Source: a virus. From it: a DNA stretch of 46,059 nt. Shown piece after piece: positions 5,545 to 46,051 of the stretch. The stretch spans positions 1 to 46,059 of the IMG/VR virus record IMGVR_UViG_3300043540_000318; one strand, 5' to 3'. How positions within the stretch are numbered: position 1 is the first letter of the stretch; each line of letters begins with the position of its first letter. Both the position numbers and the translations under genes were made by a program. A model generated the notes under the pieces. It saw only the letters and a list, made by a program, of their open reading frames with translations. It did not search any database and was not told the origin of the DNA.

Positions 5545-6518
5545 TTTGACCCACCGCCCAATAAATAATATGTAGCTGCTCTCATGAAATTTTTAACATA
5601 GTCCTTCAATTTCTGAGTGTACTTTGTCTCCACTTCTTCCTTTATCGCCTCTTGTACAATCTGTTTCGTAACCTTCACATCGCCTTTATTGCCACGAATC
5701 TGAAGTTGAGCTGAGCCGGCGGTAAGGAGAATGACCCCGCCTTCTTTAGTGCTCATATAAAATGACGGGCCTTGAGATGAACCATTTGAGTTATGCACAG
5801 AAATCAACAACGTGCCACCATCATCAGAATCCTGAATACAGATACCACTACCATTGAGTGATGCCAGTTGTACAATAGCATTTCCATCCTTCAACAGCTC
5901 ACCTGGGCTTTTCGATGTCTGACAACCAACACACTGATCGCCCCTACGCTCGGCAGTTCTTGGTTGTGTCTCCTTCCCCTCACTCTGGGTTGGCTCACTA
6001 CCCTTAAAACCACCAATCAGGTTAAGCCCAAACCCTGCGGCGTGTTTAATGCTCAACGCCTCTTTTCCAGTCTCATCACCCATGTAAATAGTGTGTCCTG
6101 CTGGGGTTTTGAGCATATAGACTAGATGCTCCTTGCCCTTTTTTTGTGCATTACTCACCTCAATAGGTACGTGACCGGTCTTGTCATCTACCGACTCCGC
6201 GACAGTACCAGATGGTATTGCAATCGGCTGGAGCATATCACCAGCAGCATATCCATATAACACAGTCTGTCGAGGTTGCATCGGCCAGTAAATGCCACAA
6301 TCCCCTTTATTGTAACCGCCACCAAGCGGGAGACCACAGACATCAACATAGTTTGTGTAATTCTCCTCACCAACACCGTGCAAATCTGGGCACTCCACCT
6401 GGATTCTACCCATGCCAAGTGGGTCTCCCTCAACTTTGCGCACTACCGCCTGATGGAAGGTTGTGAGCGCAACCACGTTCTGTATAGAAGGATCAAAGAC
6501 TAAAAAATCTGACCACAT
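5541..6518 (-). CDS. Central spike / gp5-VgrG-like OB-fold protein
   Basis: 325 residues. Residues about 20-110 show the OB-fold of gp5/gpV spikes (AVVRKVEGDPLGMGRIQVECP ... QPRQTVLYGYAAGDMLQPI). Residues about 130-160 (LKTPAGHTIYMGDETGKEAL) resemble the segment leading into the spike beta-helix. There is no lysozyme domain of the T4 gp5 type. The C-terminal ~60 residues are charged and probably helical, so a separate tip protein may be needed. It lies between the hub protein and gp25, as expected for the membrane-puncturing device. Confidence 0.8.
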   Translation of the reverse strand: MWSDFLVFDPSIQNVVALTTFHQAVVRKVEGDPLGMGRIQVECPDLHGVGEENYTNYVDVCGLPLGGGYNKGDCGIYWPMQPRQTVLYGYAAGDMLQPIAIPSGTVAESVDDKTGHVPIEVSNAQKKGKEHLVYMLKTPAGHTIYMGDETGKEALSIKHAAGFGLNLIGGFKGSEPTQSEGKETQPRTAERRGDQCVGCQTSKSPGELLKDGNAIVQLASLNGSGICIQDSDDGGTLLISVHNSNGSSQGPSFYMSTKEGGVILLTAGSAQLQIRGNKGDVKVTKQIVQEAIKEEVETKYTQKLKDYVKNFMRAATYYLLGGGSK

Positions 6519-6527
6519 AAATACCCC

Positions 6528-6809
6528 TTACTGCGCACCAGCTATCGAATTTGGGGCGCGCTCTTTTTTCACCCCACTACCAGTTACCTTCTCTGCCGCA
6601 CCCCTTGACCGAACTGGAGTGATTCTGAAATCTGCACGTATAATCTTACTACCAGGTTGACCGAACACGATCTCGCCTTGACTCTCTGCGCCATAATTAC
6701 GCGCCTCTACAGTGATACCACCACCACCATAAATATCATCATGTATGATAATCCTACCAGAACGTTTAGACCCAGTATTCCTAGGCCGACCAGGATTAGA
6801 CGTCGCCAT
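6528..6809 (-). CDS. Small baseplate-region protein, function unknown
   Basis: 93 residues, Gly-rich and basic, lying between the hub (gpD-like) and spike (gp5-like) genes. No family is recognised. Its last residues, PNSIAGAQ, are nearly the same as the last residues of the neighbouring hub protein, ANSIQGAQ. Position and size would suit a spike-tip or hub-accessory protein, but nothing in the sequence proves that; no PAAR-type motif is seen. Confidence 0.6.
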   Translation of the reverse strand: MATSNPGRPRNTGSKRSGRIIIHDDIYGGGGITVEARNYGAESQGEIVFGQPGSKIIRADFRITPVRSRGAAEKVTGSGVKKERAPNSIAGAQ

Positions 6810-6831
6810 AGATTAACAACACCTCAATATG

Positions 6832-7878
6832 TCACTGCGCACCCTGAATACTATTCGCAGCCTTGATTTTAGGAGCATTGCTTTTACTATCCTTCTGCTC
6901 TTGTTCTGGCTCATAACGACTCAACGTCAACCGCGTGCGTCCACCAGAAGCGACAGAAAAATGATGCTCGCACTTCTTAACATACCAATCGCCAGAATTC
7001 TCTGGACCGCAATTCACAACAGTAATACACTTTTTAGCCCTCAGTTCAGGAGACCACACCAATTCCACAACCCCAGTGACAGAAAAATCATTCGCATTGT
7101 TTTGCAGGTTATTTGCCCTGTTATTATCAACAGAGTTCGTGTCTGAAATCGACCCAGCATGATAAACTAAATCCTTATCATTTGTCTGCTTAGTGGGGCT
7201 CGGCGATTTCCCGTCTGCAGATTTTTTCCCATCCTGATCCTTACCTGGGTCTGGTGGGGTCTTACTTGGTTCAGACTTATTCACAGTAGGAAGATGTAAC
7301 CCAGTGACAGTCATCGGTTTCTGAAACACACTTGGTTGTCCCAAGCCAGCAGAAAAAAGACGATTATTCCGAAACGTAGCGGCGGTAGAGGGTTGACTCA
7401 TCAATGAGTAGAAACCTACAACTGAAAGATACGATCCGAAGGCCGGCAGTCGATGATTAGCTGACATCTTATCAAACTTCAGCTTACAATTTACGTTCTT
7501 CCCAGTCGAACTCCCAATAAGCGACGTTATAACATCGGATGGACTCGCGCCCTTCTTAGCCATAGCACGTATGGAATTTGGGTGTATTTTCCTCACATTA
7601 TCCTGGCAAAGAACCTCAATAAATAAACCATCAGCAGAATAAATCTCAGATACCCCCACTATATCCATAGAAACTCTATTTGAAAGATCGCCAGGGTAAC
7701 CAAATGCTATCTCGACCTCATTATCACACTGGAACAACCCAGAGAATAACATATCAACATTCACAATATTAACTCGCATTGAGGATATACCATTGTCAAC
7801 CTCTTCTATCCTCCACTCACGAACCAACTTTGTAATATCCTCGCCACAAACGGTTACTATAAAATCAACTTCGTACAT
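6832..7878 (-). CDS. Baseplate hub protein, phage late control gpD / gp27-like
   Basis: 348 residues. The N-terminus (DFIVTVCGEDITKLVREWRIEE, then FGYPGDLSNR) is typical of gpD/gp27 hub proteins, the trimeric adaptor between the tube and the spike. Residues about 195-235 are a Lys/Pro/Gly/Ser-rich linker, probably disordered. The C-terminal part (WYVKKCEHHFSV ... TRLTLSR) matches the closing strand of the hub fold. The start overlaps the stop of the preceding gene (TAATG). The last seven residues resemble those of the following 93-residue protein. Confidence 0.85.
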   Translation of the reverse strand: MYEVDFIVTVCGEDITKLVREWRIEEVDNGISSMRVNIVNVDMLFSGLFQCDNEVEIAFGYPGDLSNRVSMDIVGVSEIYSADGLFIEVLCQDNVRKIHPNSIRAMAKKGASPSDVITSLIGSSTGKNVNCKLKFDKMSANHRLPAFGSYLSVVGFYSLMSQPSTAATFRNNRLFSAGLGQPSVFQKPMTVTGLHLPTVNKSEPSKTPPDPGKDQDGKKSADGKSPSPTKQTNDKDLVYHAGSISDTNSVDNNRANNLQNNANDFSVTGVVELVWSPELRAKKCITVVNCGPENSGDWYVKKCEHHFSVASGGRTRLTLSRYEPEQEQKDSKSNAPKIKAANSIQGAQ

Positions 7879-37288: not shown

Positions 37289-37334
37289 AGTTCGTATGTT
37301 CTGTAAAAATTGTGAGGCTATTAACGATGAGTGA
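37125..37334 (+). CDS. Small Cys/His zinc-binding protein overlapping its neighbour
   Basis: 69 residues from GTG 37125, supported by GGAGGGG 7 nt upstream. The Cys/His spacing (NCKLLSAKMHKKHCQIRK, then FCKNCE) fits a small zinc-binding phage protein family. It overlaps the end of the 302-residue frame by ~160 nt in another frame and its stop overlaps the next ATG (ATGAGTGA), so it is coupled to the following gene. Function unknown; a regulator of packaging genes is possible. Confidence 0.6.
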   Translation: MSVKEEAEQWLKKTEEEGNLVNCKLLSAKMHKKHCQIRKSMFLEDDEEERPLKFRVRMFCKNCEAINDE

Positions 37335-40127: not shown

Positions 40128-40271
40128 ACCCCCGAATATTTCTTGTAATTATATCAATTATTTATAAATACTAACGATACCAACTACTTATAAACGCCAA
40201 AATATTGCTCTCTATCTATAGGGGTTTAAGTTGGCCGGCGGCGCGCTCCAGCGCTTTATGATTTGTGGGTC

Positions 40272-40300
40272 TTGACTCCGAGACCGCGGTATGCTAAGCT
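40272..40300 (+). promoter_or_regulatory. Promoter of the accessory region
   Basis: TTGACT at 40272-40277, 17 bp, TAAGCT at 40295-40300. The only promoter-like pair between the terL terminator and the first accessory gene. The ~200-nt leader behind it is structured: a long-range GC-rich stem (about 40307-40316 with 40391-40402) and the hairpins at 40409 and 40444. Confidence 0.5.
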
Positions 40301-40408
40301 ATACCTATACGCGCGAGGGGGGCGGGCGCACGGATACTACTATGCCTGTGCTGTCCCGAGCGTAAGTAGCTGTAATCACGCTTCTTTCGCCGCGCGGTAT
40401 CACATATA

Positions 40409-40433
40409 GCATATACATCAACCGTGTATATGC
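40409..40433 (+). promoter_or_regulatory. Leader hairpin GCATATACA/TGTATATGC
   Basis: A perfect 9-bp stem with a 7-nt loop in the leader of the accessory operon, just before a second, longer hairpin. Confidence 0.45.
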
Positions 40434-40443
40434 GCATCAAATA

Positions 40444-40491
40444 CTTCAAGCTTTACATCAGCATCGCATCGACTTAAAGTAAAGCTTGAAG
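40444..40491 (+). promoter_or_regulatory. Leader hairpin immediately before the RBS
   Basis: A perfect 13-bp stem CTTCAAGCTTTAC/GTAAAGCTTGAAG with a 22-nt loop that contains CATCAGCATCGCATCG, a sequence related to repeats further right. It ends 2 nt before the GGAGGG of the next gene, so it could control ribosome access. Confidence 0.55.
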
Positions 40492-40504
40492 GATGGAGGG
40501 CATC

Positions 40505-40975
40505 ATGTCGAACATGAGCCTTAAGTGGAGTGGCCAGACCTTAGCACTTGTGAGTGCAAAAGGTCGAGTGCTACTTGAAGGTATGGTTATGCTCACGCAT
40601 GATCATACTAGGTTTACGGCAATTGTTCGGGTTGCCGGTGGTACATCCGAACAATATTTTAAGTTAATCCGACCGCATAGCGCTGATTCCGCACTATGCG
40701 GTTCAGCGTTCGGAAGCGATTACATGCAGCGGCCAATGAGTCGCTGCCACAATGGGGTTGCAATAATGGGGTGGCCGGTCGAGGAAGTAGTGCGCGGCCG
40801 CACCAAGTATTCACTCTTAAAAACAGCGTTAAAGCGCTGTTTTTACGAAGGAAAAGTCTTTTCAAGTTATAGGGTGGCTCATTGGTTCCTAAGTGAGCTA
40901 CTCTGCAACGGTATAGGGAAAGCAGCAAGATTACAGGGACTTGCGCGTGCTTTCCAAAAGGAGCTTGAACAATGA
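40505..40975 (+). CDS. Unknown protein encoded by a hairpin-dense gene
   Basis: 156 residues from ATG 40505 (GGAGGG 5 nt upstream; an ATG at 40493 overlaps the RBS). The sequence looks protein-like (LKWSGQTLALVSAKGRVLLEG, RVAHWFLSELL) but no family is recognised. The nucleotide sequence is filled with consecutive inverted repeats, at 40542-40573, 40581-40608, 40622-40655, 40671-40703, 40726-40747, 40790-40803, 40818-40845, 40871-40904 and 40917-40955, several using G-U pairs. The DNA may therefore be under RNA-structure selection as well as, or instead of, coding selection. Its stop overlaps the next start (ATGA). Confidence 0.5.
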   Translation: MSNMSLKWSGQTLALVSAKGRVLLEGMVMLTHDHTRFTAIVRVAGGTSEQYFKLIRPHSADSALCGSAFGSDYMQRPMSRCHNGVAIMGWPVEEVVRGRTKYSLLKTALKRCFYEGKVFSSYRVAHWFLSELLCNGIGKAARLQGLARAFQKELEQ

Positions 40976-41193
40976 AGGAGCAGACCATGAGGAGGGTTGT
41001 GCTCAGGATAGCTGAGCACAACGAAAACAGAGTGTTTGTTGAGTACGTGAACGGTAAAGGCGAGTACAGCCGCCGCACCGTTCAAATTACAGGTCACAAT
41101 GATTCCCAATTTTGGGGATATTGTGAACTGAGACAAGACGAGAGAGTGTTTAGGTTCGACCGGTTAGTGTTTGCCGGTCAACCAAAACACTGA
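40972..41193 (+). CDS. Small WYL-like single-domain protein
   Basis: 73 residues, AAGGAG 8 nt upstream. The pattern VFVEYVNGKGEYSRRTVQI ... FWGYCELRQDERVFRFDRL resembles the SH3-like core of WYL domains ('I-x-Y ... R-x-V-x-P ... W-x-L-x-A-x-C-x-x-R-x-x-x-R-x-F-R-x-D-R'). A free-standing domain without an HTH is unusual; such ligand-sensing domains regulate defence systems. The gene also holds perfect hairpins (40996-41022, 41050-41082, 41094-41126, 41158-41179). Confidence 0.6.
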   Translation: MKEQTMRRVVLRIAEHNENRVFVEYVNGKGEYSRRTVQITGHNDSQFWGYCELRQDERVFRFDRLVFAGQPKH

Positions 41194-41202
41194 GGGGTTA
41201 AG

Positions 41203-41955
41203 GGGGGGCTCCAACAACTGCAGCCAAGTTGCTAATTTGACTGTAGTTGTTGGGGGAAAGAAAATAAAGTGGGTTGCGGTCAGTGGACTCACCTGCATAA
41301 AAAGCTACCCTTGCTGGTAACTCCCTGATGCAAAGTCCGACCGCAACGTCCAGCCCACCCGCAGAAGCGGGGCGACGCCAAGAGTACAGAGATGTTGAGG
41401 CGCGGGTGATGGTGGAAGGGGGCGGTGATCCTCAGGGGGGGAAGTACTGAGGATGCGTCACACCGCCCCGTCGCAACCCCTGGAACCCCACAGGGACACA
41501 CCACCTAGGTGCAGACACTCCAAAAGGGAGTGGAGCTCGCGATATGCAGCGACCGTCGGGATGACGGACGTGGGAGTCGTGGCAATGTCTGGAGCCACGG
41601 CAAGGCAAAAAGGCGGGTTACATGCACCGAAACCGGAAATCCCAGACAGGGGGTTGACGTCATCCCTAAGCTCCAATGAGGACAACGGGAAGATGAGCCG
41701 CCGCGACATAACGGGAAGTGAAAGTGAATCGTAAGTCAGGAGTCGCGGGGCGGTACTAAGCAAGGAGCAAGGGGATGACGTCCGACCTGCCCGCGATCTG
41801 CGAGGAGACTCGATCGCGTAATGATCCCCGCCCCTCGTGCCAACAACGACGACGGGCGACATGGGACCACTGATGTCAAGTTGGCGTGGAGACATCCTGG
41901 TTGCGGTCGAAAGGCAACGTTGCCAGCCAGACCAGATCGTGGGCATCCTCCTAAA
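41203..41955 (+). ncRNA. Candidate large structured non-coding RNA (~750 nt)
   Basis: A GC-rich stretch without a believable gene but with many stable helices. At 41211-41253 lies a 13-bp stem with one G-U. At 41273-41347 an arm carries nested stems GTTGCGGTC/GACCGCAAC, GGACT/AGTCC, TGCAT/ATGCA and TACC/GGTA. CCCGC/GCGGG with loop AGAA is at 41358-41371, and 41419-41469 has a 9-bp stem over a 7-bp stem. Hairpins follow at 41516-41532, 41553-41567 and 41578-41599. At 41792-41818 a stem is capped by a GAGA (GNRA) loop. GCCAAC/GTTGGC (41839-41885) encloses GACAT/ATGTC. GACGTCATCCC (41656-41666) and GGGATGACGTC (41772-41782) make an 11-bp long-range helix that crosses the 41747/41834 stem, a possible pseudoknot. 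Size, complexity and phage context recall GOLLD and ROOL RNAs; identity is not established. No own promoter or terminator is seen, so it may be processed from the operon transcript. Confidence 0.55.
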
Positions 41956-42005
41956 CAATAGACCTGAGTAGAAGGGATTGCTAACATGGAAAGGAGGTGA
42001 TAGCG

Positions 42006-42140
42006 GTGCTCACAGGTGAGGCTTGGACCGACCTGTGGGAGGACCTCGGAGCCATCGGCTTCGACGAGGCGTTCGACGATGATGACGCCTCCGAAGAGCC
42101 CGAGGGCTTCGAGGGCTTCGACCTCGACCTGCCTCTGTAA
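42006..42140 (+). CDS. 44-residue extremely acidic protein
   Basis: Start GTG 42006 with a full-consensus AAAGGAGGTGA ending 5 nt upstream. The product (MLTGEAWTDLWEDLGAIGFD..., ending EGFEGFDLDLPL) has 16 Asp/Glu and no Lys, Arg or His. Such composition occurs in DNA-mimic inhibitors of restriction or CRISPR enzymes and in small transcription modulators. It is immediately upstream of the AcrIII-1 gene. CCTCCT at 41947-41952, in the 3' part of the structured RNA, can pair with its AGGAGG. Function is inferred only from composition and context. Confidence 0.6.
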   Translation: MLTGEAWTDLWEDLGAIGFDEAFDDDDASEEPEGFEGFDLDLPL

Positions 42141-42161
42141 TGGGGGCGGGTTGAGGTTGAG

Positions 42162-42311
42162 GTGATCCGCGTCCCGAAGCGCGGCCATGACACACTCGCA
42201 TGGGTGGAACCGAGTGCAAACACGAATCAAAAAAGAAACGGAGGAGTTAAGAATGTTAATTATCAATGCAATCAGTGTAAACATGCTGCCCAAAGAAGGG
42301 GCGGCACTTAA
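42162..42311 (+). CDS. Possible 49-residue ORF overlapping the AcrIII-1 start
   Basis: GTG 42162 with GAGG 5 nt upstream opens a frame (IRVPKRGHDTLAWVEP..., with a CNQC pair) that runs 59 nt into the AcrIII-1 gene in another frame. The first 17 residues look protein-like, the rest less so. It may be a leader ORF coupling translation to the anti-CRISPR gene, or chance. Confidence 0.25.
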   Translation: MIRVPKRGHDTLAWVEPSANTNQKRNGGVKNVNYQCNQCKHAAQRRGGT

Positions 42312-42573
42312 GGTCCGACCGGTCTCCCTGGAGCAAGCCAGGGAAATACTGGAAGACGGGTTCGAATCAGCCATAGGTCACACCGAGACCGCGAATGTGG
42401 TCGGTGGGATGCTGGGCATGTCAGTACCCACGAACAGAGTCACGGTGCAACTGGGCTTCGGAGACGAGGCTCTGGTGGCACAGTATATAGGTCAGAGGCT
42501 GCCCGAAGGGGCAACCTCGCTGCCGGAAGGTGCAGAGATAAGGTTCTTCTACCTCACGGTGGAAGAACTCTAA
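42253..42573 (+). CDS. acrIII-1: AcrIII-1 family ring nuclease (DUF1874), anti-type III CRISPR
   Basis: 106 residues from ATG 42253 (GGAGGAG 6 nt upstream). The sequence follows the DUF1874 pattern closely: LIINAISVNML at the start, ESAIGHTETANVVGGML with the catalytic-type His43, NRVTVQLGFGDEALVAQ and YIGQRLPEG. In SIRV1 gp29 the corresponding elements are FSINML, SIGHDST and ISQRLEEG. The family cleaves cyclic tetra-adenylate, the second messenger made by type III CRISPR complexes, and so shuts off the ancillary nucleases. It is placed in the accessory operon after the acidic small protein. The leader hairpin of the next gene begins four bases after its stop. Confidence 0.9.
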   Translation: MLIINAISVNMLPKEGAALKVRPVSLEQAREILEDGFESAIGHTETANVVGGMLGMSVPTNRVTVQLGFGDEALVAQYIGQRLPEGATSLPEGAEIRFFYLTVEEL

Positions 42574-42577
42574 GACC

Positions 42578-42613
42578 TCCTCCTGGGCATGAGGTTAAAC
42601 TGCCCAGAAAGGA
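42578..42613 (+). promoter_or_regulatory. SD-sequestering leader hairpin, copy 1
   Basis: TCCT, C, CTGGGCA, loop TGAGGTTAAAC, TGCCCAG, AA, AGGA. The 7-bp stem is perfect and the outer TCCT/AGGA pairing covers the Shine-Dalgarno of the gene starting at 42621. The loop framework TGAG-N2-TAAAC is shared by all three copies. Confidence 0.8.
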
Positions 42614-42620
42614 AAGAACG

Positions 42621-42908
42621 ATGGCTGAAGAACGAAGTGGTATCGAGAGGGTAGTGAAGGTAAAACCATTGAGCATGTTGAACGAGAAACAGGCTGCATG
42701 GCTAGAAAGGTTCAAAGACTGGGACGAGGTTGATGAGTACTTCTTCAACCTCGTCGGAGATGGTGACTCCGCAATCCGCTTCTACGACAGAGTCGTGGAA
42801 GTAATGGAGGAATTGGAGAAGAAGTATGGAGGCAGGGTTCGGACATTCCCCGAGGACCCGCCATGGGTCTTCAGGTTGTATGTCCAGAAAGGAGGTAAGA
42901 GACAATGA
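42621..42908 (+). CDS. Paralog family P1, copy a (unknown)
   Basis: 95 residues. Shares the segments GIERVVKVKP, LNEKQAAWLERFKDWDEVDEYF, AIRFYDRVVEVME and FPEDPPWVFRLYVQKGGK with the gene at 44253-44531, so the two are clear paralogs. Predicted small alpha/beta protein ending in a basic strand. No known family. Both copies have the conserved SD-sequestering hairpin immediately upstream (AGGA 7 nt before the ATG), suggesting common translational control. Position after the anti-CRISPR gene suggests a host-takeover or counter-defence role, which is inference. Confidence 0.75.
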   Translation: MAEERSGIERVVKVKPLSMLNEKQAAWLERFKDWDEVDEYFFNLVGDGDSAIRFYDRVVEVMEELEKKYGGRVRTFPEDPPWVFRLYVQKGGKRQ

Positions 42909-43118: not shown

Positions 43119-43282
43119 CCACAATGGTCAGTTCTGTTGTGGGAGAGTATCCAGGGTCCCAGATGTAGGGGAGTCTGGACTCATTCGGAAAATGAGGAGG
43201 GACTCCCTAACCTCGGTGCAGGACTTGCATCGGGGGTGTTATCAACTCCGCATCGACATCAGCATCAGCATCGATGTTGGTG
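43119..43282 (+). repeat. Structured repeat element X, copy A
   Basis: Hairpins CCACAA/TTGTGG (43119-43142) and GGGTCCCAGA/TCTGGACTC (43154-43182, one bulged C) are followed by CATT/AATG and by a repeat ending CAGCATCGATGTTGGTG (to 43282). It aligns in the same order with copy B at 43675-43866, while the reading frames of the two copies are not conserved. A short ORF (ATG 43113) begins here but is probably a leader or nothing. From 43061 to 43377 no other gene is seen. Confidence 0.5.
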
Positions 43283-43329
43283 TTGATCTTGTATCAGCAT
43301 CGACATCAGCGCTGATGGCGCTGGACCCA

Positions 43330-43377: not shown

Positions 43378-43617
43378 ATGACATTTGTAGAACTGCAAAC
43401 GAGGAGGGTGAGGGCGGCCAGGAAGGTGTTGGACGCGTTGTATCGCGACATCACGGAGTTCCGTATCATCCATTTCCCCGACGGGGATGTGGATGATGAT
43501 CGGGCCCCGATCCCAGAGGTCGTGGGATCGGAGGAAATCGCTGAGCTGATCGAACAGATCAGTCCACTGATCGGAGAGTTGCAGCATGAGGTTGACAACC
43601 TCATCGACTGCAGGTAG
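43378..43617 (+). CDS. Paralog family P2, copy a (unknown)
   Basis: 79 residues from ATG 43378 (GGAGG 7-8 nt upstream). Shares TF-E-Q-R-VR--RK-L--LYRDITE, PIP-VVGSEEIAELIEQISPL and a final DNL-DCR with the gene at 43951. The N-terminus is basic, the rest acidic; two long helices are likely. No family is recognised. The stop is followed directly by an SD-sequestering hairpin. Confidence 0.72.
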   Translation: MTFVELQTRRVRAARKVLDALYRDITEFRIIHFPDGDVDDDRAPIPEVVGSEEIAELIEQISPLIGELQHEVDNLIDCR

Positions 43618-43621
43618 AATT

Positions 43622-43657
43622 TCCTCCTGGGCATGAGGCTAAACTGCCCAGAAAGGA
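43622..43657 (+). promoter_or_regulatory. SD-sequestering leader hairpin, copy 2
   Basis: TCCT, C, CTGGGCA, loop TGAGGCTAAAC, TGCCCAG, AA, AGGA, GGG. An ATG at 43662 follows 4 nt after, opening an 89-codon frame through element X copy B. Because that frame is not conserved with copy A, the downstream target is uncertain. Confidence 0.75.
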
Positions 43658-43674
43658 GGGTATGAAGGTGAGCT

Positions 43675-43866
43675 CACAACGATGGCTGACGTTGTGGGTG
43701 AGTCAGAAGACCAGATGTACATGGGTGCGTCTGGTCTTCATCGGAAATCTGGATGGGGTGAGTCTAGCCTCGGTCATGAATTTGATTGGGGATAGCCTAA
43801 CTCTCGAACAGTCCAAAAAGATGGGCATCAGCAACAGCGGAAACAGCATCAGCATCGATGTTGGTG
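43675..43866 (+). repeat. Structured repeat element X, copy B
   Basis: CACAAC/GTTGTG (43675-43696), a perfect 10-bp stem GAAGACCAGA/TCTGGTCTTC (43706-43739), CATC/GATG, and the 23-nt repeat that ends CAGCATCGATGTTGGTG at 43866, identical to the one in copy A. The stems differ from copy A by paired changes (GGUC/GACC-type exchanges), which argues for RNA rather than protein conservation. From 43618 to 43950 no convincing gene is seen. Confidence 0.5.
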
Positions 43867-43910
43867 GTGATTGCACATCAGCATCAACATCGGTGTTGAT
43901 CATACATCGA

Positions 43911-43942
43911 ACCAGCGTTTCGCGCTGGTAAAAAATCGGAGG
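43911..43942 (+). promoter_or_regulatory. Second-type leader hairpin before P2b
   Basis: ACCAGCG, loop TTTCG, CGCTGGT, then AAAAAATCGGAGGT with the SD. Compared with the copy at 44561 (GCCGGCG/CGCCGGT) the fourth base pair changes A-U to G-C, a compensatory exchange, with loop and downstream segment identical. Confidence 0.65.
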
Positions 43943-43950
43943 TGATGGCG

Positions 43951-44205
43951 ATGAGAATGACATTCGAGGAATGGCAGGCAAGAAAGGTGAGGAAGATGAG
44001 GAAACTGTTGGAGTCGCTTTATCGCGACATAACTGAGCTACACATCACGTATTTTGAAGACGGCAGGTGGGAGCTCGATGACGAAGGTCGTCATCCTATC
44101 CCAGATATTGTTGGTTCCGAGGAGATTGCTGGGCTGGTCGAACAGATTAGCCCATTGTTGGGCAAACTCCAGAAAGCAACCGATAACCTCCAGGACTGCC
44201 GATAA
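43951..44205 (+). CDS. Paralog family P2, copy b (unknown)
   Basis: 84 residues from ATG 43951 (GGAGG 8 nt upstream); GTG/ATG codons at 43942-43947 overlap the SD. MTFEEWQARKVRKMRK, LYRDITELHITYFEDG, HPIPDIVGSEEIAGLVEQISPL and DNLQDCR match copy a with a small insertion (GRWELDDEGRH). A loosely similar element (VVDDEGREWPL) occurs in the gene at 45723. Unknown function. Confidence 0.72.
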   Translation: MRMTFEEWQARKVRKMRKLLESLYRDITELHITYFEDGRWELDDEGRHPIPDIVGSEEIAGLVEQISPLLGKLQKATDNLQDCR

Positions 44206-44209
44206 CACA

Positions 44210-44245
44210 TTCTCCTAGGCATGAGAATAAACTGCCTAGAAAGGA
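44210..44245 (+). promoter_or_regulatory. SD-sequestering leader hairpin, copy 3
   Basis: TTCT, C, CTAGGCA, loop TGAGAATAAAC, TGCCTAG, AA, AGGA. Relative to copies 1 and 2 one G-C pair of the stem became A-U (CTAGGCA/TGCCTAG), and the outer UUCU still pairs with AGGA through a G-U. AGGA lies 7 nt before the ATG at 44253. Confidence 0.8.
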
Positions 44246-44252
44246 AATGAAA

Positions 44253-44531
44253 ATGGAAAGAGAAGGAATTGAAAGAGTGGTGAAGGTTAGACCGTGGAGC
44301 ACACTGAACGATCGTCAGGCTGCATGGTTGAAGCAGTTCAAGGATTGGGACGAGGTTGATGAGTTTTTCTTCAACCTCACCGGAAACTACGAGGCAGCCA
44401 TTCGCTTCTACGACAGGGTCGTGGAAGTGATGGAGGGTCTCGGAAAGACATACGAAGGGGCGGTGAAGACATTCCCCGATGATCCGCCGTGGACCTTCAG
44501 GGTTTACGTCAGAAAGGGCGGGAAAAGGTAG
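44253..44531 (+). CDS. Paralog family P1, copy b (unknown)
   Basis: 92 residues from ATG 44253, the start equivalent to P1a and 7 nt after AGGA; an ATG at 44247 is too close to the SD. About two thirds of residues match P1a, including the invariant-looking WDEVDEFFFNL, FYDRVVEVMEGL and DDPPWTFRVYV. DNA hairpins inside the gene (GAGGTTGA/TCAACCTC; TTCTACGAC/GTCGTGGAA) are shared with P1a. Unknown function. Confidence 0.75.
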   Translation: MEREGIERVVKVRPWSTLNDRQAAWLKQFKDWDEVDEFFFNLTGNYEAAIRFYDRVVEVMEGLGKTYEGAVKTFPDDPPWTFRVYVRKGGKR

Positions 44532-44560
44532 TATGAGTTTAAGGGGGGGATTCACATCAA

Positions 44561-44590
44561 GCCGGCGTTTCGCGCCGGTAAAAAATCGGA
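44561..44590 (+). promoter_or_regulatory. Second-type leader hairpin before the 368-residue gene
   Basis: GCCGGCG, loop TTTCG, CGCCGGT, then AAAAAATCGGAGG with the SD of the gene at 44600. Same loop and spacer as the copy at 43911, with paired differences in the stem. Confidence 0.65.
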
Positions 44591-44599
44591 GGTAGAAAG

Positions 44600-45706
44600 A
44601 TGAAGTTGGTAGAAGTTATAGAGTTGGTTGCAAAAGAGTTTGGGTATAATGGTAAAGTCCAGAAGTTCGTGGATGAGCTTCTCAAACATCAGGAGGAGTT
44701 GAATCTGGAGTGGTCGAAGGATATCCCCACCCAGGTTGCATATTCGAAGGGTGGGAAGAGGATCAGGACAAAACTCGGACGGTTTGCAGTCCGAGTAATC
44801 GGTGTAGAGATTCCCGATGCATTCGTTGCATCGTGCATCGGGGAAGAGTTCGGTACTGATGAGTATGTCACTCTCCTGAAAGGCTATGAAATAGTAGAGG
44901 CCTATCAGGAGGGATTTGCTGCTGAGTCGTGCATGACTGGCGATGACTCGGATAAAGTCGAGTTGTATGCGCTCAATCCAAACAAGGTAAGGCTGATAAA
45001 GTTCGTGGCAGGTCCGGTATCTGCAAGGGCGCTGATCTGGGGAACAGATCAGGGAGTGCTAGTGGTTGATAGAGTGTATCCCAGCGATAACCGCACTGCG
45101 GTGGAGTGCATACATCGATGGGCAAAGAAGAAGGGGTATGTCTATCGGGTCAATCAGGACCCAGGGACGGCGGGATTTAGCGAAGGATATGCTCCAACGT
45201 ACACAGTGACGTTGCGTCACAATCACGTGTATCCGTACATGGATACGTTCATGTATGGATATCGGGTGATTGTGAAGGGGAAGGAGATGCTCCGAGTGAG
45301 CAATCAGACATGTGACCTCACAGAGTTTGAAATGCAGACCACTCGTGGGTATGCATATCAGACTAAGAACAATCGTTGCGTGTTATGCGGGAGCATGTAT
45401 GTGGATAATGAATCGTATATATGGTTAAATAATGAGGAAAGAGTTTGTTCGGAATGCATGCATAGAGTTCACAAGTGCTCCATTTGTGGCAACATCTTCA
45501 TCATGCCGGAGAAGGGAAGGAATGTAGAGATATGTGACTTCTGCATGAGGACCAGATATGTGGAATGCTGCATGTGTGGCGACCTGGTTCCACGTGCAGA
45601 GTATATATATCATAATGGCGCTCATTTCTGTGATGAGTGCTTTGGGGATATAGTCATGAAGAGAAAGTGGAAGTGTTACGAGTTGGAGTTCAACGCTAGT
45701 ATCTAA
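44600..45706 (+). CDS. Large zinc-ribbon protein, conserved phage unknown
   Basis: 368 residues from ATG 44600 (GGAGG 7 nt upstream). Residues about 110-200 (AAESCMTG, LYALNPNKVRLIKF, ARALIWGTDQGVLVVDRVYPSD) follow a pattern seen in uncharacterised proteins of large phages. The C-terminal third contains three pairs of CxxC knuckles (CVLCG/CSEC, CSICG/CDFC, CCMCGD/CDEC), probably three zinc ribbons or treble-clef units. Hairpin-forming DNA continues here (ACTCGGAC/GTCCGAGT, CCCGATGCA/TGCATCGGG, CTGATCTG/CAGATCAG). A nucleic-acid- or protein-binding role is likely; no catalytic motif is seen. Confidence 0.72.
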   Translation: MKLVEVIELVAKEFGYNGKVQKFVDELLKHQEELNLEWSKDIPTQVAYSKGGKRIRTKLGRFAVRVIGVEIPDAFVASCIGEEFGTDEYVTLLKGYEIVEAYQEGFAAESCMTGDDSDKVELYALNPNKVRLIKFVAGPVSARALIWGTDQGVLVVDRVYPSDNRTAVECIHRWAKKKGYVYRVNQDPGTAGFSEGYAPTYTVTLRHNHVYPYMDTFMYGYRVIVKGKEMLRVSNQTCDLTEFEMQTTRGYAYQTKNNRCVLCGSMYVDNESYIWLNNEERVCSECMHRVHKCSICGNIFIMPEKGRNVEICDFCMRTRYVECCMCGDLVPRAEYIYHNGAHFCDECFGDIVMKRKWKCYELEFNASI

Positions 45707-46014: not shown

Positions 46015-46051
46015 CGATGCTGATATCAATCCTGTATTGGTATCAGCATCG
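46015..46051 (+). terminator. Long hairpin at the right edge, possible terminator
   Basis: A 16-bp stem (CGATGCTGATATCAAT with ATTGGTATCAGCATCG, one G-U) with loop CCTGT, followed by TCGTTTAT. The ATCAGCATCG core also occurs in the repeats at 43263 and 43847. The T-run is poor, and the window ends before the element can be judged. Confidence 0.4.

Follow-up and report, generated by a model that had tools for sequence, protein, structure and literature searches.

Gene content of the locus and its relatives

The window, the whole stretch of 46,059 bases that was analysed, is a virus record and represents a fragment of a tailed double-stranded DNA phage with sheath, capsid, and terminase genes. 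The relatives of its terminase include two very similar contigs of 122 to 124 kb, G001 and G002, which are identical at one end, where 5.6 kb were compared. Positions 1 to 40003 of the window are collinear with 80.6 to 119.8 kb of G002, and a 368-amino-acid protein encoded at 44600 to 45706 matches G002 6500 to 7480, so that 40.0 to 44.6 kb of the window corresponds to both ends of the G002 contig. This part of the window, whose genes we infer to be early from their position and content, holds the following features.

40225-40504, + strand: structured leader of ORF1, with a 13-bp hairpin (40444-40491) immediately 5' of the Shine-Dalgarno (SD) sequence GGAGG
40505-40975, + strand: ORF1, 156 amino acids from the ATG at 40505 or 160 from 40493; about 10 internal hairpins; no known family
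40972-41193, + strand: ORF2, 73 amino acids, with a putative WYL-like domain; ATGA overlap with ORF1
40996-41022, 41048-41084, 41090-41130, and 41145-41191, + strand: hairpins of ORF2
41200-41990, + strand: candidate large RNA, a strongly folded noncoding stretch; no Rfam family
42010-42141, + strand: possible gene for a small acidic protein; an open frame only, codon score not positive
42253-42573, + strand: predicted DUF1874/AcrIII-1 family ring nuclease gene (PF08960 and PDB 6scf matches); hairpin-rich
42621-42908, + strand: early gene, paralogue of 44247-44531 (72% protein identity), with stem conservation
43378-43617, + strand: early gene, paralogue of 43951-44205, with a structured duplicated leader
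43951-44205, + strand: early gene, paralogue of 43378-43617
44247-44531, + strand: early gene, paralogue of 42621-42908
44600-45706, + strand: gene for the 368-amino-acid cysteine-rich protein; hairpin-rich (z 4.8); synteny anchor with G002

No relatives of ORF1 and ORF2 were found in the viral contigs searched or in the terminase-relative contigs, nor any of ORF1 among the phages searched, and the duplicated small genes had none outside the window. The segment from 40.2 to 42.0 kb gave no blastn match among phages, and 41200 to 41990 had no match in the relatives.

ORF1 and ORF2 are packed with hairpins and look truly coding

The original prediction had counted about 15 inverted repeats between 40409 and 41193. 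We recovered that number with a scan that scores G-T and A-C mismatches alike and therefore has no strand bias; its 15 stems run from 40409 to 41191.

Stems 1-5, + strand, strand-symmetric scan: 40409-40433, 40444-40491, 40542-40573, 40581-40608, 40622-40655
Stems 6-10, + strand, strand-symmetric scan: 40672-40702, 40726-40747, 40767-40805, 40810-40853, 40866-40909
Stems 11-15, + strand, strand-symmetric scan: 40917-40955, 40996-41022, 41048-41084, 41090-41130, 41145-41191

All four hairpins that had been named as examples are present in the sequence, at 40818-40845 (arms TAAAAACAGCG/CGCTGTTTTTA), 40917-40955 (GGAAAGCA+GCAAG/CTTGC+TGCTTTCC, with a GCG bulge), 40996-41022 (arms GTTGTGCTCAG/CTGAGCACAAC), and 41094-41126 (TCACAAT(G)ATTCCC/GGGGAT-ATTGTGA). 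The density of stems across 40225 to 41200 was 17.4 per kb versus 7.1 ± 1.5 in dinucleotide shuffles. The further statement that two of the hairpins (40581-40608 and 40871-40904) pair only through G-U was too strong, since the stems at 40581-40608 and 40866-40909 are mostly Watson-Crick with a few G-U pairs.

We then compared the folding of the two ORFs with that of shuffled copies encoding the same proteins, a check proposed with the prediction; had the copies folded equally well, this would have spoken against it. The minimum free energy (MFE) was -196.7 kcal/mol for ORF1 versus -150.8 ± 6.9 in codon-permuted copies (z -6.6) and -90.4 versus -61.7 ± 5.5 for ORF2 (z -5.3), z-scores that are inflated by plain permutation, which does not preserve dinucleotides. 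When dinucleotides were also kept, the z-score was -4.1 for ORF1 and, in shuffles that leave 96% of the letters unchanged, -2.1 for ORF2. The native energy was reached by none of 40 shuffles of any kind, so both genes fold better than every copy. Under codon shuffling the control genes gave z 0.0 (the upstream gene at 37312) and -1.4 (first 600 nt of the terminase gene).

The two ORFs look truly coding, and 40505 to 41193 is thus dual coding. Each has the best codon score of the six frames, ORF1 is preceded by GGAGG 5' of the ATG at 40505, and its end overlaps the start of ORF2 in ATGA. Two readings had been offered, that the genes are both coding and structural or that the first ORF is not translated and the folded RNA extends over about 1.5 kb; the codon shuffles and the coding evidence bear out the former, and the latter fails on the codon frame, the SD sequence, and the overlap. 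The ORFs within 41453 to 41958, for their part, have noncoding codon scores. A single untranslated RNA of about 1.5 kb was therefore rejected, and 41200 to 41990 is a separate downstream noncoding element. The product of ORF2 appears to be WYL-like, judging by several weak but concordant matches: to the WYL family PF13280 (E 0.0018; 18.6 bits, below the 21.8-bit cut-off), to the PADLOC model of CRISPR-associated WYL proteins (E 4.3e-5), and, again weakly, to YafY/WYL proteins.

The noncoding element has a GC content of 0.58 and folds at about -0.41 kcal/mol/nt on both strands. None of the Rfam covariance models, ROOL and GOLLD among them, matched it at the gathering score, and below that score the matches were at chance level only. 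It may be a large phage RNA belonging to a family not yet described. As a long structured noncoding stretch adjoining ORFs it resembles the large ornate phage RNAs ROOL and GOLLD, but it differs from them in lacking an Rfam match and in that the adjacent 40505 to 41193 is coding.

Folding extends through the early region

The dense folding extends past 41193, as far as about 45.7 kb. A 120-nt scan found strongly folded plus-strand windows throughout 40.4 to 44.9 kb and only scattered points elsewhere. The hairpin excess of the ten early genes (ORF1 to 45992) over codon-permuted copies was 144.5 score units/kb (Z 7.7), or 84.7/kb (Z 5.8) with dinucleotides kept, compared with -0.4/kb for 17 co-directional core genes of the same genome; the opposite-strand structural genes had 29.5/kb. 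ORF1 and ORF2 are the most extreme part of the folded early region. Although energetically strong, the folding lowers the unpaired fraction only modestly, to 0.33 against 0.32 to 0.43 elsewhere.

Every gene start between 42.5 and 44.6 kb has a hairpin before its SD sequence. Leader modules made of a short hairpin, an A-rich spacer, and an SD sequence recur before the small genes (42571-42639, 43615-43683, and 44203-44271; 43904-43943 and 44554-44593), with compensated base pairs between copies (ACCAGCGTTTCGCGCTGGT versus GCCGGCGTTTCGCGCCGGT). At the record end, 46015-46051 forms a 16-bp near-perfect hairpin (CGATGCTGATATCAAT/ATTGGTATCAGCATCG) that resembles the GCATCGACATCAG repeats at 43250-43313 and 43835-43900.

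The contig ends of G002, where its syntenic early region lies, are likewise more strongly folded than any other part of its 124 kb; neither ORF1 and ORF2 nor the large RNA has a counterpart there by sequence. G002 also has (at L004 15400-16220) a GC-rich (0.62), hairpin-laden ORF of 233 codons beside tandem repeats, possibly another structured RNA, which ends in a strong terminator-like hairpin and a T run. Following 17-bp tandem repeats, an apparently noncoding structured stretch of G002 (L009 240-835) corresponds in position to the RNA at 41200 to 41990, with no similarity detected; another stretch, at L009 2311-2500, is closed by a long inverted repeat (AGTCTCCACTGAGATAAT / ATTATCTCAGTGGAGACT; folding z -7.7).

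Selection appears to act on the plus-strand RNA

Palindromes that are nearly perfect occur in coding as well as noncoding early DNA, and tandem repeats adjoin the folded ORF of the relative. These could point to a cause at the level of DNA, the palindromes being binding sites or a replication origin or having arisen from template switching, with RNA folding as a side effect. Were the stems decaying DNA palindromes, roughly as many A-C as G-T mismatches would be expected. In the stems of the early region the ratio of G-U to A-C was 73:33 versus 35:28 in shuffles, and in the ten early coding sequences it was 48:24 versus 33:23. The plus strand of 40400 to 41200 also folds better than the minus strand (-327 versus -272 kcal/mol), and no common binding-site consensus was seen among the 15 stems. 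These observations leave a DNA-level cause very improbable in our judgement.

The duplicated genes provided a further comparison. The paralogue pairs 42621/44247 and 43378/43951 showed, at conserved amino acids, a third-position identity of 0.71 within stems and 0.49 outside; rotating the stem mask 300 times never gave so large a difference. The duplicated leader-plus-gene unit has a common fold in which 20 of the 126 predicted pairs are kept through two-sided changes between the two sequences. Selection thus appears to act on plus-strand RNA rather than on DNA; the codon shuffles, the excess of G-U over A-C, and the stem-linked synonymous conservation in the duplicates all agree with the early suggestion that the transcript is what is selected.

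Hairpin excess peaks in DUF1874 genes

The gene at 42253-42573, 1.1 kb downstream of the hairpin-packed ORFs, belongs to PF08960 (E 4.7e-15; 56 bits against a curated cut-off of 26). Its product also matches the AcrIII-1 structure PDB 6scf, and the GH and R.P.G motifs (G42 H43; R82 P84 G86) are invariant in six viruses. The gene is therefore predicted, from its sequence, to encode a ring nuclease of the AcrIII-1 family that degrades cA4; the viral ring nucleases of this family destroy that second messenger of type III CRISPR (PMC7293037).

Prompted by the window, we surveyed 33 other dereplicated loci with a called DUF1874 gene, taken from IMG/VR plus the Thermoanaerobacterium phage THSA-485A, picked through a DNA pattern and a simple ORF caller, with kinship among them reduced by clustering only. 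A two-sequence alignment led to two viral loci and a back-translated motif to 46 stretches; an alignment of six sequences was too divergent for a pattern search, and a single-protein query gave no matches. The excess over codon-permuted copies was 85/kb for the DUF1874 gene and fell to 31 within two genes of it, 27 in the next ring, and 14 farther out; preserving dinucleotides gave 57, 17, 13, and 5/kb in that order, with Z 6.8 for the DUF1874 genes. The latter figure and the Z of 5.8 for the ten early genes of the window, both from shuffles that preserve dinucleotides and codons, lead us to give next to no credence to chance or an artefact of composition.

The immediate same-strand neighbours of the DUF1874 gene had 41/kb upstream and 23/kb downstream (dinucleotides preserved), and the gene itself exceeded them (P 0.005). 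Within their own loci the DUF1874 genes ranked at a mean percentile of 0.74 (P 6e-5), and 23 of the 24 protein clusters (below 55% identity; three are plasmid copies) were positive (Wilcoxon 1e-7). The MFE Z was -13.0 for the sense and -9.6 for the antisense strand. Compared with shuffles, G-T pairs numbered 127 versus 85 and A-C pairs 81 versus 74 in the DUF1874 genes, and 181 versus 134 and 140 versus 143 in the genes near them. A six-gene window test found no peak at the DUF1874 gene of AFV7 and a weak one in HP1, and we do not rely on that test alone. In THSA-485A (L018 18373-22300) hairpin-rich accessory genes surround the DUF1874 gene, with hairpins such as CCTGCTGCAATAGCAGCAGG inside a coding sequence. 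No description of folding in AcrIII-1 coding RNA was found in the open literature searched.

The stems themselves hardly keep their positions. Third-position identity in the DUF1874 genes was 0.496 in stems versus 0.471 outside (P 0.09), and stem positions largely turn over between homologues apart from a mild common bump near nt 211 to 270, as expected if the density of stems, not one element, is selected. This turnover, and the spread of hairpins over whole coding sequences, are unlike a discrete regulatory element, and we think it improbable that the hairpins serve transcriptional or translational regulation by blocking Rho loading, aiding put-like processive antitermination, or tuning the translation of overlapping early genes. 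Such a role would accord with the repeated hairpin-SD leaders and their compensated pairs, with the large noncoding RNA lying within the early unit, and with the put RNA of HK022 as a precedent for structured RNA in phage early operons (PMC9378689); against it also stands the lack of an Rfam match. The put element is short and discrete and acts on RNA polymerase, whereas the window has kilobases of dual-coding hairpins.

Early genes of other phages and the phiFa test

The mean excess for small genes of lambda, SPO1, P23-45, and a Vibrio phage was 19.6/kb. The top folded windows of lambda and SPO1 were early genes, which suggested a general early-gene effect. This was rejected for lambdoid early genes: 62 annotated early genes of lambdoid and related phages gave -8.7/kb, and eight ninB genes, from a control set that omits one record, a Stx-converting phage, gave -28/kb. 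Early expression alone is therefore insufficient as an explanation.

The same controls bear on whether the folding stabilises mRNA in general, against host RNases (RNase E, J, or Y) or against RNA-degrading defences other than CRISPR, such as toxins and HEPN abortive systems, with AcrIII-1 merely marking mobile regions rich in counter-defence. Folding that sits in RNA and in early genes would suit such a role, as would the hairpins before the SD sequences, which are like known 5' stabilisers, and the early region of G002, which is folded but has no known DUF1874 gene. The lambdoid early genes, however, face the same kinds of host RNases and show no excess. General stabilisation is likewise at odds with an excess that peaks in the DUF1874 gene and is greater there than in the neighbouring genes on the same strand, and we therefore consider it unlikely.

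For the Thermus phage phiFa, protection by type III spacers is limited to those that target genes of the long terminal repeat and, in part, those against its direct neighbour (PMC7515739). The excess in the terminal-repeat genes was 83.8/kb (Z 5.3), or 59/kb (Z 3.7) with dinucleotides preserved, most of it carried by two of the ten genes; the next early genes had 26, the middle genes 31, and the late genes 13/kb. Gene 49 and the RNA polymerase gene (L088 424-885 and 2564-4669), both in the terminal repeat, had the strongest hairpin excess of the early genes. The counts of G-T and A-C pairs in phiFa showed no absolute rise of G-T. Despite the folding, phiFa is still restricted by type III spacers against the terminal repeat (PMC7515739).

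In vitro, structure in the target RNA lowers type III detection, the drop reaching two orders of magnitude with the worst guide, and the authors of that work caution that this influence may be smaller at the high temperatures at which type III systems are common (PMC8682760). The targeting of E. coli phages by Cas13a has been reported to be consistent across targets and timing (PMC9712115), and this uniformity implies that shielding is not general to phage transcripts.

A possible role in withstanding RNA-level defence

The pattern of folding is computed from the sequences; as its cause we propose that folding lets the early mRNAs withstand defences that act on RNA, with type III CRISPR as the leading candidate, and we hold this about as probable as its opposite. 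The early region (about 40.2 to 45.7 kb, plus strand) would be under selection for dense short mRNA hairpins while coding for protein. The first phage transcripts would need to be translated before counter-defence proteins accumulate, the putative AcrIII-1 ring nuclease of the same region included. Folding might lower the access of type III guide RNAs to the early transcripts, make these transcripts poorer substrates for the single-strand RNases switched on by type III signalling, or both. Once the ring nuclease had destroyed cA4, later genes would need no folding, and the absence of folding in the core genes is proposed to follow from the loss of that signal. Since no DUF1874 gene is known in G002, with its folded early region, folding may not depend on such a gene.

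The idea that folding shields transcripts from type III pairing, raised with the original prediction, gained indirect support from the AcrIII-1 gene nearby, the peak of the excess in DUF1874 genes, and the phiFa maximum where type III spacers work; early expression, type III as the selecting force, and the step blocked are all three what we infer. More broadly, mRNA shielding may be a counter-CRISPR strategy in which the first transcripts of phages and plasmids, and most of all that of the anti-type III gene, are recoded as chains of hairpins that block guide RNAs or cA4-activated RNases until the inhibitor is made. We advance this generalisation tentatively and judge its chances to fall somewhat short of even.

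The genome-scale ordered RNA structure (GORS) of RNA viruses is a dense local folding across coding sequence, beyond what codons and dinucleotides lead one to expect, and has been proposed to evade RNA-sensing immunity. The coding RNA of the window is similar in folding better than codon- and dinucleotide-preserving shuffles; it differs in that the folding is confined to the early region, the 17 co-directional core genes having no excess, in that it concerns the mRNA of a double-stranded DNA phage, not an RNA genome, and in its statistical link to an anti-type III gene. The window also encodes a predicted member of the AcrIII-1 family (DUF1874, PF08960; ring nucleases of the SIRV1 gp29 type), but the known function of that family is the protein's, and here it is the coding RNA that is folded.

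Even if type III CRISPR is not the cause, several kilobases of dual-coding, plus-strand-biased hairpins in early genes only are unusual for a double-stranded DNA phage. If the proposal is true, synonymous codon choice in early genes would be a counter-defence trait, and anti-CRISPR activity could lie in the message no less than in its protein product. The proposal would be relevant to the question why only certain early transcripts make effective targets for type III spacers and would offer a protein-independent signature for locating anti-type III loci. Recoding would then provide a direct test of how the message for an anti-CRISPR persists until the protein exists.
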